Assembly (NCBI RefSeq): GCF_009898475.1
Contig: NZ_QURE01000010.1
Coordinates: forward strand, 1 to 53,516
Source: Nitrososphaera sp. AFS
Lineage (GTDB): Archaea > Thermoproteota > Nitrososphaeria > Nitrososphaerales > Nitrososphaeraceae
Direction of reading: 5' to 3'
DNA length: 53,516 nt
Under the pieces are notes generated by a model. That model was not told the DNA's origin. It did not search any database and saw only the letters and a list, made by a program, of their open reading frames with translations. Of the stretch, positions 4,509 to 39,430 are shown piece by piece. The translations under genes were made by a program, and so were the position numbers. Numbering within the stretch: position 1 is the stretch's first letter; each line of letters starts with the position of its first letter.

Positions 4509-4680
4509 GGTTTAGCGTAACTCTTTAATTATTTTAAATTATCTGGCCGGTAATTTGGCTAAAGTTGATCCTACGTTTTCATTGCTTTAAGTCTGTAAGT
4601 ATATCTTTTTATTTTCCTTGCCCAGCTCTTCTTATGATCTGATTAGAGACGAAATGAGATGACAAGAGGTCGTGATAAAT

Positions 4681-6318
4681 ATGGGTTTTAGGATGCGCTA
4701 TCTTGATCTTAAGAGGAAGATATGTGATATACGTATGTTGGCAATCAGCGGTATTGCAGAAGCTGGCTCAGGCCATCCAGGTGCTTCATTTTCTGCCGCT
4801 GAGATTATGGGTGTTCTCTATCTTCGAAAGATGCGTCATTTACCTGACAAACCAGATTGGGAGGACAGAGATTATTTTATCAACTCAAAGGGACACTCTG
4901 CTCCTGGATTCTTCGCAACATTGGCAACTGCTGGGTATTTTCCGCCAGAAGAAATGGAAACTCTACGCAAGCTAGGGAGCCGGCTACAAGGTCATCCAGT
5001 AAGATACACTCCTAACGAGGTTCAAAGTGTGCCTGGCATCGAATTTTCGGGAGGGTCTGAAGGGATCGGTCTTTCTGTCTCGATAGGCATAGCTCTAGCA
5101 AATAGGTTAGACGGAAGAAAGAATCGCGTCTTTACCTTAATTGGCGACGGTGAGTCCAACGAAGGCCAGATCTGGGAGGCAGCTATGGCAGCCGCCAAAT
5201 TCAAATTGCATAGGCTAGTCGTCCTGCTAGATCGTAACCGCATCCAACAAGATGGTTTCACAGAAGATGTCATGCCACTCGATCCTACTCGCGATAAATG
5301 GTCAGCCTTTAATTGGAACGTAATTGAAATCTGTGGTCACAACGTAGAACAGATAACCGACGCTTTGAACAAGGCTAATGAAATGAAAGATAGGCCTACC
5401 ATAATTATAGCAAATACCATTAAGGGGAACGGAGTCAAGCACATGACAAATAATCCTCAGTGGCACGGTAAAGCGCCCCCAAGAGAACATACTCCAATAT
5501 TGCTAGAAGAGTTGAGGAGTGAATGTTTTATTGCGCCTTCGATTATAGCGGGCCGACAAGAGAATTATGAAGAGAAGATTAAAAATGCAGAACGAGGAGG
5601 TGCTGACATCATCCATCTCGATATAATGGATGGTAAGTTCGTACCTAATACTACTTTCTTTTCTGATACAATTAAGCAGCTAAGACGTATTACCACACTA
5701 CCATTTGATGCCCACCTGATGATCGAAAATCCACTAGATCACATCCAAGATTATGTTGATGCCAGGTGTGATGTGATTACTGTTCATGCAGAAATGTGTA
5801 ATGAAAGTCAATTTTTACAAATTATCGACAAATTGCTTTCAAACGGAATCAGCCCAGGAATTGCTCTCAACCCATCTACAGATATTCCATCTTGGCTCTA
5901 TTCCCATCTGCATAATCTCGATGTGATTTTGATAATGTCGGTGAATCCAGGGTTCGCAGGCCAGAAGTTTATTCCTGGAATATTATTAAAAATCCACGAC
6001 ATTAATCAAAAGGTCCGCAAGCACGGATTCCGGGGTTATATTGAGGCTGATGGCGGGATTGATGCTACCATAGTACAAAAAGTGTACGAGGCTGGCGGCA
6101 GGATATTTGTGGCTGGAAATGCTGTTTATGGAAGCGGCGACATTCACGGTGCAATTATCCAGTTAAGACACAAGGTAAATGTAGCGCTTGAAAGAAAGCT
6201 ATTGGATGAAGCAAACGCGATAGGTATAAGGAATGATTGGTTGAAGACACGTAAACATATATTGATTCCACTAGCAAATGAGCTAGGCATAGAGGAGGAA
6301 TTGCATGCTCTTAAGTAA
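4681..6318 (+). CDS. transketolase N-terminal half fused to ribulose-phosphate 3-epimerase
   Basis: The first ~280 residues are the thiamine-diphosphate-binding half of transketolase (AGSGHPGAS, SKGHSAPG, ThDP motif GDG...N around GDGESNEGQIWEAA and LDRN). From about residue 286 the chain is a complete ribulose-5-phosphate 3-epimerase barrel: IAPSI, HLDIMDGKFVPNTTF, DAHLMI, MSVNPGFAGQKF, EADGGI, GNAVYG. A ~40-residue basic/helical tail follows. The open frame runs through with no stop, so this reads as one bifunctional protein coupling two steps of the non-oxidative pentose-phosphate pathway. I chose ATG 4681, with GAGGT about 10 nt upstream, over a GTG at 4672. It overlaps the transketolase C-half gene by 14 nt. 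Confidence 0.9.
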   Translation: MGFRMRYLDLKRKICDIRMLAISGIAEAGSGHPGASFSAAEIMGVLYLRKMRHLPDKPDWEDRDYFINSKGHSAPGFFATLATAGYFPPEEMETLRKLGSRLQGHPVRYTPNEVQSVPGIEFSGGSEGIGLSVSIGIALANRLDGRKNRVFTLIGDGESNEGQIWEAAMAAAKFKLHRLVVLLDRNRIQQDGFTEDVMPLDPTRDKWSAFNWNVIEICGHNVEQITDALNKANEMKDRPTIIIANTIKGNGVKHMTNNPQWHGKAPPREHTPILLEELRSECFIAPSIIAGRQENYEEKIKNAERGGADIIHLDIMDGKFVPNTTFFSDTIKQLRRITTLPFDAHLMIENPLDHIQDYVDARCDVITVHAEMCNESQFLQIIDKLLSNGISPGIALNPSTDIPSWLYSHLHNLDVILIMSVNPGFAGQKFIPGILLKIHDINQKVRKHGFRGYIEADGGIDATIVQKVYEAGGRIFVAGNAVYGSGDIHGAIIQLRHKVNVALERKLLDEANAIGIRNDWLKTRKHILIPLANELGIEEELHALK

Positions 6319-33300: not shown

Positions 33301-35405
33301 ATGGAGTCACGCAGTACTGACAATCACAATCCTAGTAAAGCGGAGCCAAATAAACTAATTGAAGAGACCAGCCCATATCTGCTTCAACATGCATATAATC
33401 CGGTCAAATGGTATCCATGGAGCAAAGAATCAATTCTGAAAGCACAAACTGAGGATAAGCCTATCTTCCTTAGTATAGGCTATAGTGCATGCCACTGGTG
33501 TCATGTGATGGCTCATGAGTCATTTGAGGATCCGGCAATTGCAAAAATAATGAACGAGAATTTCGTGAATATAAAAGTTGACAGAGAAGAAAGGCCTGAT
33601 GTAGACGACATATATCAAAGGGTTTGTCAGCTCGTGACTGGGACTGGAGGCTGGCCACTCTCTGTGTTTTTGACTCCTGACCAGAAGCCATTCTACGTGG
33701 GCACATATTTCCCCAAAAATGCTAGATACGGTACCCCGGGTTTCGGTACAATCCTTAGTCAGCTGGCAAATGCGTATAAGGACAAGAGAAAAGAAATTGA
33801 CACTGCTACAGTGGAGTTCTTGCAGGCATTGGAAAGCTCGAGCAGAGACGCGATACAATCAAGTGGTGTCACAATTGATCAATCAACTTTGGATGAAGCT
33901 GCAATTGGGTTGTTACAAATTGGTGACCCTGTTTATGGTGGATTTGGACATGCGCCAAAATTTCCAAATCCGTCGAATTTACTATTCTTACTGCGTTGCT
34001 ACGATATATCTGGGATCAATAAATACAAGGATTTTGTCATCCTCACGGCAGATAGAATGGCAGCAGGCGGAATTTACGATCATATCGGTGGTGGATTCGC
34101 ACGATATTCCACAGACCAAAAATGGCTTGTTCCACATTTTGAAAAGATGCTTTACGATAACGCACTGCTCGCGCAAGTATATTCAGAGATATATCAGGTC
34201 ACCAGGGATGACAAATATTTGGATGTCCTGACGAAGACCTTGGATTACGTGTTGCGTGAGATGATGTCTCCTGATTATGGATTTTATTCTGCACAAGACG
34301 CAGACTCGGAAGGAGAAGAGGGAAAATACTACGTTTGGTCAAAACAAGAGATCGTCGATTCTCTTTCTAATGAAATGATTTCTAATATTTTTTGTGATTA
34401 TTATGGTGTTTCGCAATTTGGCAATTTTGAGGGCGAGAACATTCTCAATGTGAGAACCAGTGTTTATGAGCTGTCGCGAAAGTACGGTCAACAGCCGGAA
34501 ACTGTAAAGCGAATGATTAGTGAAGCAGCTTCGAAACTATTCAAGATAAGGGAGCAACGAGTCAAACCGGGCCTAGATGATAAAATTCTGACAGCCTGGA
34601 ATGGCCTAATGATCTCTGGATTTGCAAAAGGATACAGAGTAACGAATAACAGACGATATCTTGAAATGCGGTTGAATTTATACAAACTAGACTAAGTAAT
34701 TCTGAAAGTAGATTGTTTAGGACATTTAAGAATGGCGAATCTAAACTCAACGGATATCTTGATGACTATGCATTCTATGTAAATGCGTTATTGGATGTAT
34801 TTGAGCTCAATCCAAACCATCTATATCTTGAACAAGCTATAAAACATACTGATTTCATGCTTGAACATTTCTGGGACGCAGTCGATCGCAATCTTTTTTT
34901 CACCACTGACGACCACGAGAAACTTATTGTTAGGACCAAGAGCTTGTATGACCTTGCACTCCCAAGCGGCAATTCAGTTGCTGCCTCAAACCTGCTGAGA
35001 TTACACGTATTGACCCAAAATTCTAACTACCTTGAAAAAGCCGAGCAGATTATGGAAAGCGGATCCAAAGCATCAATTCAAAATCCCTTTGGATTTGGAC
35101 AATTATTGATAGCCATATATATGTACTTGAAAAAGCCTATTGAAATAACGATCAGAGCAGAAAATAAGACCGGCGAAGGCGAAAACATGGCGGAGTGGCT
35201 GAATAAGCAGTTTATCCCAAACGCAGTAACTATATTCGTAGGCAATAATTCACAATTAAGTAGTCTACAAAAATACTCTTTTTTTAGGGAAACCAGTTTA
35301 ACCGGTAAAAAACAAGACTTTGCTGTGATTTGCAAAAACTCCGCATGTTCATTGCCTCTTTATTCGTTAGCTTCAATGCAACAGAAGCTGAAGTCATTGC
35401 TATGA
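33301..35405 (+). CDS. thioredoxin-domain protein YyaL/DUF255 (SPATA20-like), split by a frameshift
   Basis: Two ORFs (33301-34695, 464 aa; 34713-35405, 230 aa) together give the family's usual ~690 residues. The first part has the N-terminal thioredoxin-like domain ([21 protein letters not shown] motif in [28 protein letters not shown]) and the first half of the (alpha/alpha)6 barrel ([34 protein letters not shown]). After RYLE, the proper frame continues as [18 protein letters not shown] into the second ORF ([27 protein letters not shown]). Adding one A to the A3 run at 34664-34666 restores a single protein. Biochemical role in prokaryotes is unclear. Confidence 0.9.
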
Positions 35406-37724: not shown

Positions 37725-38423
37725 ATGAAAATCAGCCATTGTGACTTTCCTGAGGATCTCCTTTACGATGCAGAAAACTTTGTTTGGTGTAAGACAAACA
37801 CTGAGAGTGGAATGATGACTATTGGCATCATAAATTGCCTTGGCTATATCAGTGGTAAATTGTCCAATATTAATTTGAAACCTATTGGTATTACTGTGGA
37901 ACGCGGAAAAAGTATAGGCACCATCGAGAGCTCGCGATATTTTGGTGTGGTAAGATCTCCTGTAAGTGGTAAGATTATCGAAATTAACTCATCTCTTTCG
38001 CAGTTGCCAGAGCTCGCAAATAAGTATCCGTATACACAAGGTTGGTTTGCGAGATTAAAAGTCACCAAGATTGATGAGGGAATAAAGAGCCTGAAGAACA
38101 TAAAGAGCTGTAGCGATGAAATTGCGGCACTAATTCAAAGGCACCACATCATTTGCTTTGATGCTTTTCCAGACTTTGAGTTGTTCGAAATAGGAGTGGA
38201 ATGTGCTGCTACACTAGCGAAGCTTGACGAATTATTAGAAAAAATCGCAGTTGGTAGTGTAGTTCATTTGGTCTCAGATGATCCAACTGCAGATTTGGAG
38301 ATGATTAGATGGTCTGAACAAACTGGACAATCATTATTGGATTCAAGAAGGGAAGGAAACTTGTTCCATTTCACGGTCAAGAAAACGCAAGGCGAGATAG
38401 CTGAATATGATTTGAATCGGTGA
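37725..38423 (+). CDS. fusion of a GcvH-like domain (no lipoyl lysine) and a TusA-like domain
   Basis: 232 aa. Residues 12-118 match glycine-cleavage H protein (FVWCKTNTESGMMTIGI, GTIESSRYFGVVRSPVSG, PELANKYPYTQGWFARLKV). At the lipoylation site, where H protein has ESVKA, this protein has ESSRY, so Arg71 replaces the Lys and lipoylation is not possible there. Residues 150-222 resemble TusA/SirA: the Cys of the CPxP motif is kept at 160 (VECAATLAKL) but the prolines are gone; the rest (GSVVHLVSDDPTADLEMIRW, TGQSLLDSRREGNLFHFTVKK) fits well. A sulfur-relay or scaffold role is inference. Confidence 0.8.
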   Translation: MKISHCDFPEDLLYDAENFVWCKTNTESGMMTIGIINCLGYISGKLSNINLKPIGITVERGKSIGTIESSRYFGVVRSPVSGKIIEINSSLSQLPELANKYPYTQGWFARLKVTKIDEGIKSLKNIKSCSDEIAALIQRHHIICFDAFPDFELFEIGVECAATLAKLDELLEKIAVGSVVHLVSDDPTADLEMIRWSEQTGQSLLDSRREGNLFHFTVKKTQGEIAEYDLNR

Positions 38424-38500: not shown

Positions 38501-39430
38501 TTGACTTGTGGGATCATTTTACCGTCAATCAAAGAATTGTCACTATCTGGATTAGTTATCGCAGTAACAGCTAGCCGAAGGGCAGAGGAGCTTGCGAGAA
38601 TCATTAGATCTTTTGGGGGCGTCCCCTATCTCGTTCCAACCGTCGGAATTGAGGTGAATCCGCGTCTAAATAAAGAGACTGTTCTTACTACCATTAAGAG
38701 ATTTAAAGAAAAAGTAGATTATGCGGTTTTCATGACAGGACCAGGGGTTTATTCTTTAATGTCCTCCGCTAGGGATCTTAAATTAGAGGGAGATCTGCTC
38801 CGAATGCTACAGGAGGTACAGGTTATAGCTAGGAGTGCTAAGCCCAAGGAAGCCTTAGCCACTTGCGGGCTAAAGGCCAAGATCACTATACCAAACGACA
38901 ATACTTTTGAAGGAATTGGCAAGTTATTGGTCTCTATGGGAGTGAGTGGAAAGAAGGTCTATATCTTCTGGCATGGCTCACACTCATCTTATTTGAGACA
39001 AACACTCGAGGATCAAGGGGCATTAGTCTTTGAAACTCATACATATACGTATTCGACTGACGTTAACGAAGGTGGGGCAGAAATTCTCAAAATGATGGGA
39101 TATGAATATGTGAATCCAAATGAAGCCAGAGTGATAAAGTTTATCGAAGACATTTTTGCTTCTAAGGTGGACGTAATAACTTTTACAAGTCCGCCTGCCG
39201 TAAGCCAACTTTTTACGATAGCCTCAAAACATGGACTAGTCGATTCTCTGGTAAAAGCGCTCAATAAGAGCGTGATTGTGGTTGCAATTGGTCCTGCGAC
39301 GCTGAAAGTTTTGAAGGAAAATGATGTGTATGTCGACGTTTTACCAGAATATTATAAGATGGGATTTATGATTAAGGCTCTGGCTAACTTTGTAGGGACT
39401 AGTGACGGCATGACGAAGGCAAAAAAATAA
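38501..39430 (+). CDS. hemD: uroporphyrinogen-III synthase
   Basis: 309 aa, two-lobed HemD. Recognisable: LVIAVTASRRAEELARIIRSFGG, FMTGPGVYSLM, ARSAKPKEALATCGL, then lobe 2 VITFTSPPAVSQLF, VVVAIGPATLKVLKENDVYVDVLPEYYKMGFMI. Closes and inverts ring D of hydroxymethylbilane to form uroporphyrinogen III, the precursor of heme, siroheme and cobalamin. A loop inserted around residues 185-215 is longer than usual. TTG start at 38501. The other tetrapyrrole genes are not nearby. Confidence 0.88.
   Translation: MTCGIILPSIKELSLSGLVIAVTASRRAEELARIIRSFGGVPYLVPTVGIEVNPRLNKETVLTTIKRFKEKVDYAVFMTGPGVYSLMSSARDLKLEGDLLRMLQEVQVIARSAKPKEALATCGLKAKITIPNDNTFEGIGKLLVSMGVSGKKVYIFWHGSHSSYLRQTLEDQGALVFETHTYTYSTDVNEGGAEILKMMGYEYVNPNEARVIKFIEDIFASKVDVITFTSPPAVSQLFTIASKHGLVDSLVKALNKSVIVVAIGPATLKVLKENDVYVDVLPEYYKMGFMIKALANFVGTSDGMTKAKK

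Follow-up and report, generated by a model that had tools for sequence, protein, structure and literature searches.

The stretch of DNA analysed here, 53,516 nucleotides of Nitrososphaera sp. AFS (the window), encodes a protein that, judged from its sequence, is a fusion of an LbpA-type domain with a TusA domain, and that probably (at about 60% in our estimate) acts as a rhodanese-fed carrier of sulfane sulfur on its own cysteines in place of lipoate. The protein combines two folds, three invariant cysteines and an N-terminal domain that belongs to a single clade of fused domains and is akin to LbpA rather than to GcvH. A two-domain rhodanese gene frequently adjoins the fusion gene, and the near-complete ammonia oxidisers which carry the fusion have neither the machinery for lipoate nor that for glycine cleavage and are essentially devoid of the CCG subunits of sHdr. 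The three invariant cysteines and the rhodanese are the decisive features; the invariant Cys6 and Cys144 and the adjacent rhodanese had been missed in an earlier interpretation made without database searches (the sequence-only reading). That reading knew of no description of such a protein, and indeed none of an LbpA-type–TusA fusion was found in the literature searched, nor was any sulfane-sulfur role of this kind in ammonia-oxidising archaea.

Domain architecture of the fusion protein

The sequence-only reading had proposed a GcvH-like and a TusA-like domain within one open reading frame, and the presence of both folds is borne out by Pfam, AlphaFold2 and Foldseek (Table 1). The Pfam TusA match, which falls within the residues 150-222 where this domain had been placed, has an E-value of 4.3e-7 and a score of 30.1 bits, just above the cut-off of 28.6, and the fusion scores below the NCBIfam gcvH cut-off. 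The AlphaFold2 model (mean pLDDT 93.2, pTM 0.82) matches solved GcvH structures (H-proteins) with TMt 0.91-0.94, as well as the E. coli TusA of the IscS-TusA complex, and found no match in a viral structure library.

Arg71 is in gap-free register with the lipoyl-lysine of H-proteins, and Cys160 aligns to the cysteine of a separate, CPEP-type TusA encoded in the same genome, so that the earlier placement of Arg71 at the lipoyl position and of a retained Cys160 in a TusA-like domain without the CPxP prolines is confirmed. The loop at Cys160 reads ECAAT, not CPxP. Cys144 lies 16 residues upstream of Cys160.

Table 1. Positions of the fusion gene, its domains and its key residues in the window.
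Feature	Position	Strand	Evidence
LbpA-type–TusA fusion gene, 232 aa	37725..38423	+	ATG ORF, translation, full-length homologues, dN/dS ~0.2
LbpA/GcvH-fold domain, residues 14-127	37764..38105	+	Pfam GCV_H 1.4e-23; Foldseek H-proteins; tree outside GcvH
Cys6, invariant	37740..37742	+	82/82 ORFs reaching the position; aligned to N-terminal Cys of Sulfolobaceae LbpA-type protein
Arg71, lipoyl-lysine position, variable in the family	37935..37937	+	Residue counts in column 71
Cys144, invariant, in linker before TusA domain	38154..38156	+	89/89 ORFs; aligned to C-terminal Cys of Sulfolobaceae LbpA-type protein
TusA-fold domain, residues 157-220, without CPxP prolines	38193..38384	+	Pfam TusA; Foldseek 3lvj_C TMt 0.87
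Cys160, invariant, TusA active-site position	38202..38204	+	90/90 ORFs; aligned to CPEP Cys of the genome's own TusA

Relationship to LbpA, GcvH and TusA

The LbpA proteins of sHdr, some archaeal ones excepted, possess two conserved cysteines that are absent from GcvH, one near the N-terminus and one near the C-terminus, and their lipoyl-lysine is strictly conserved (Cao et al. 2018, PMC6067878). Cys6 and Cys144 of the window protein correspond to these LbpA-specific cysteines. A stand-alone protein of family f35, which we take to be of Sulfolobaceae type, going by gene content and by Group II as described in PMC6067878, aligns with the window protein over 144 residues with both cysteines in register; its gene adjoins a lipoate ligase gene and lies near LipS1/LipS2. 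In a maximum-likelihood tree of 69 domains, which is unrooted and thus silent on the direction of descent, the fusion domains form a single clade (99/92) that is excluded from the GcvH clade (100/99), with Lbp-type proteins located between the two. The correspondence of the two cysteines with those of LbpA, together with the exclusion from GcvH in the tree, argues for an LbpA-type–TusA fusion. GcvH as the identity of the N-terminal domain is ruled out by the tree and by the missing GcvP. The earlier assignment of a GcvH-like domain is therefore right as to the fold and the Pfam match but not as to the type, while the suggested tie of the fused pair to the lipoate-binding proteins and TusA of the sHdr world is upheld by the LbpA-type cysteines and the TusA match.

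While the fusion resembles LbpA in its fold, in the register of its N- and C-terminal cysteines and in its placement on the Lbp side of the tree, it carries a TusA domain, has not kept the lipoyl-lysine and occurs in hosts that lack lipoate machinery and have essentially no sHdr CCG subunits. In addition, LbpA is encoded together with sHdr and lipoate-assembly genes, whereas the neighbours of the fusion are the rhodanese or unrelated genes. With TusA it shares the fold and the carrier cysteine; however, the prolines of CPxP are lost in the fusion family, the domain is fused, and the genome encodes a CPEP TusA separately. With GcvH it has in common the fold and the Pfam GCV_H match, whereas it lies outside the GcvH clade, its host genome has no GcvP, and its lipoyl-lysine is not conserved. 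The DsrE3A/TusA relay of Metallosphaera cuprina, located near an Hdr-like complex, is likewise archaeal and passes sulfur along to a final TusA cysteine, but it consists of separate proteins carrying thiosulfonate, and the abstract describing it (PMC4175335) mentions no rhodanese–fusion pair.

Two further loci (L205:357-848 and L210:413-898) encode stand-alone Lbp-type proteins with an N-terminal cysteine and the motif ESAK[YF], which are possibly unfused relatives of the fusion. The former also has a C-terminal cysteine and comes from a genome (G240) that carries the fusion too.

Family conservation and selection

A search for the two-domain architecture, as proposed in the sequence-only reading, returned conserved homologues across many archaeal families. 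Of 60 related genomes about half contain them, as do members of other families in the phylum, and scanning 84,980 species genomes with patterns that favour near relatives yielded 73 fusion loci (a set obtained with the narrower of two alignments, A1), all but one weak match being archaeal. The names of these loci, taken from record titles and not from checked taxonomy, comprise Nitrososphaeraceae, Nitrosocaldus, Nitrosocosmicus, Bathyarchaeota, Thermoplasmata and Euryarchaeota. No fusion turned up in four near-complete genomes from g12, a different genus within the same family. The window protein is 88% identical to the copy of a sister genome, with a dN/dS of 0.21 (Nei-Gojobori), and the value between two congeners is 0.15, indicating that the family is under purifying selection.

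In an alignment of 91 ORFs, which includes the window and three duplicate loci, Cys6, Cys144 and Cys160 never vary (Table 1), whereas column 71 holds K in 42, R in 36, N in 4, T in 3, S in 2, I in 1 and V in 1. Alignments of 55 and 49 fusion sequences agree with this picture. We read the contrast between invariant cysteines and a variable column as position 71 drifting, with the cysteines being what selection keeps. Since column 71 varies, Arg71 is not the functional novelty of the fusion, and a K-to-R exchange as a conserved or defining change, which the sequence-only reading had in mind, is ruled out. The loss of CPxP, on the other hand, is family-wide, with one proline at position 161 and none at position 163 in 90 ORFs. 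Of the earlier view that both functional motifs are altered, the part on CPxP thus stands, while the lipoyl position is merely variable; similarly, of the intact lysine and CPxP that were to be looked for in homologues as a sign of local decay, the lysine is often present but the CPxP motif never.

Rhodanese and gene context

Of 89 loci, 56 have a two-domain rhodanese directly next to the fusion; without three duplicates, judged as such from matching coordinates, the figure is 53 of 86. The rhodanese has a Pfam E-value of 9.8e-35, and its best NCBIfam match is 3-mercaptopyruvate sulfurtransferase, below the cut-off of that model; YCRIGER (the CRIGER loop) is present in all 53 adjacent full-length rhodaneses scored. 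By our reading, the rhodanese gene is convergent and downstream in 44 of the adjacent loci and co-directional and upstream in the other 12 (three of which were labelled 'downstream same strand' by the script, attributed to overlapping ORFs), with f30 and f45, both distant families, accounting for most of the co-directional cases. In four loci of Nitrosocaldus type (L108, L114, L116 and L117), about 4.3 kb separate the rhodanese from the fusion.

Within the family, the presence of a close rhodanese follows that of the fusion: among genomes that carry the fusion 28 of 29 have one, vs. 2 of 8 among those that do not, in a count by hand with a lower identity limit of about 68%, set after seeing the data; the Fisher p of 8e-5 and a binomial figure for this co-occurrence are only indicative, since kinship among the genomes makes the counts non-independent. 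Two observations count against the carrier reading: the rhodanese and fusion genes do not adjoin each other in the genus of the window, and the window's genome, 89.6% complete, offers no rhodanese closer than one of 61% identity. No neighbour besides the rhodanese is common to the fusion loci across lineages. HemD (38501-39430) was rejected as a functional partner, since its position next to the fusion is confined to the genus of the window. In f30 (L171 and L173), the rhodanese–fusion pair has genes for EtfA and a FixC-like flavoprotein upstream of it, a hint of a possible electron-transfer link.

Lipoate, glycine cleavage and sHdr in the host genomes

Five near-complete fusion-bearing genomes (G006, G017, G024, G037 and G053), which we infer to be ammonia oxidisers from their match to Nitrosocosmicus and Nitrosocaldus, contain no LipA over the cut-off, no LplA catalytic domain and no real LipS2, with LipS2 matches below 45 bits vs. 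209-243 bits for real ones. In these five and in G000, GcvP is absent, and so are the sHdr CCG subunits but for one weak match in G037. In G000, G017 and G037, the three genomes whose protein was checked, the single PF03099 gene encodes a biotin ligase, and this, together with the weak LipS2 matches, rules out lipoylation in the ammonia-oxidising hosts. Given the lack of LipA, LplA and real LipS2 and the essential absence of CCG, lipoate and sHdr, judged by gene content, cannot be involved in the working of the fusion in these near-complete hosts. The fusion of G053 (L025) carries Lys71, yet its host has no lipoate machinery. Other fusion hosts (G049, G075, G129, G156 and G274) have LipA and LplA, so that lipoylation is conceivable in part of the family.

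In one same-genus genome, a single contig (G005:C256, L200) carries a canonical GcvH, pieces of GcvP and LipA, unlike the relatives of that genome; this contig is possibly a contamination.

Proposed mechanism and alternative explanations

In the mechanism that we propose, Cys160 in the TusA-like domain would receive a persulfide from the rhodanese, a donor that gene linkage speaks for. From there the sulfur would pass to Cys144 in the linker and/or to Cys6 in the LbpA-like domain, in an order and by a chemistry that we infer, with the Cys6/Cys144 pair standing in for the lipoyl dithiol of sHdr-linked LbpA. The sulfur would finally be passed on to an acceptor, or be freed as sulfide when the cysteine pair closes to a disulfide. 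A persulfide carrier was among the roles suggested in the sequence-only reading, and it appears plausible to us. However, an sHdr complex that could take up the sulfur is missing from the ammonia oxidisers, and the loss of the TusA CPxP prolines could mean an altered chemistry; both count against a carrier. More tentatively, ammonia-oxidising and related archaea may possess a sulfane-sulfur system without lipoate or sHdr, in which the rhodanese and the thiols of the three-cysteine fusion do the job of TusA, lipoyl-LbpA and sHdr.

The invariant cysteines and the link to the rhodanese would also be compatible with a thiol/persulfide redox sensor, in which the TusA part receives sulfur and a reversible disulfide or polysulfide bridge between Cys6 and Cys144 reports the level of sulfane sulfur, regulating a partner without carrying flux. 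The lack of a conserved enzyme partner besides the rhodanese agrees with this idea; however, no DNA-binding or signalling domain is fused to the protein, no regulator is a conserved neighbour, and both domains derive from sulfur carriers, so we regard a sensor as rather unlikely. It is less likely again that the three invariant cysteines hold a metal ion and the domains form a scaffold: although such cysteines could bind a metal and the classical motifs are altered in both domains, Cys6 and Cys144 have their counterparts in LbpA, Cys160 matches the carrier cysteine of TusA, and the linkage to the rhodanese would be left unexplained.

Slightly more doubtful still is a lipoylated LbpA in an ordinary sHdr or glycine-cleavage role, at least in the lineages with Lys71. 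Lysine is the commonest residue of column 71 over the 91 ORFs, and some fusion hosts do have a lipoate ligase and LipA, but R, N, T, S, I or V stands there elsewhere, the near-complete ammonia oxidisers, including G053 with its Lys71, are without LipA, LplA and real LipS2, and the window protein with its Arg71 would not be accounted for. Finally, a decayed glycine-cleavage H protein, accidentally fused to TusA, can practically be dismissed: both textbook motifs are altered and one relative (L009) has an internal stop, but dN/dS is about 0.15-0.21 and the cysteines are invariant across 91 ORFs from many families, a conservation that refutes decay, including a merely local one.

The lipoate arm of LbpA is the proposed working part of sHdr sulfur oxidation, and the fusion family amounts to a natural experiment in which the lipoyl-lysine is not kept while both LbpA-type cysteines and the TusA cysteine are kept without exception. 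That the cysteines persist while the lysine is not retained throughout suggests that the LbpA-type cysteines have a function of their own, which would be testable in this family. The rhodanese-fed carrier reading also points to a putative sulfane-sulfur route not yet described in ammonia-oxidising archaea.

Other features of the window

At 33301-35405 (+), a YyaL/thioredoxin-domain-like gene is split into two ORFs (33301-34695 and 34713-35405), whereas its counterpart in L037 is one ORF of 704 aa; the window thus has a frameshift, either real or a sequencing error. At 4672-6318 (+), judged by eye from the translation, the N-terminal half of a transketolase is apparently fused to a ribulose-phosphate 3-epimerase-like segment.
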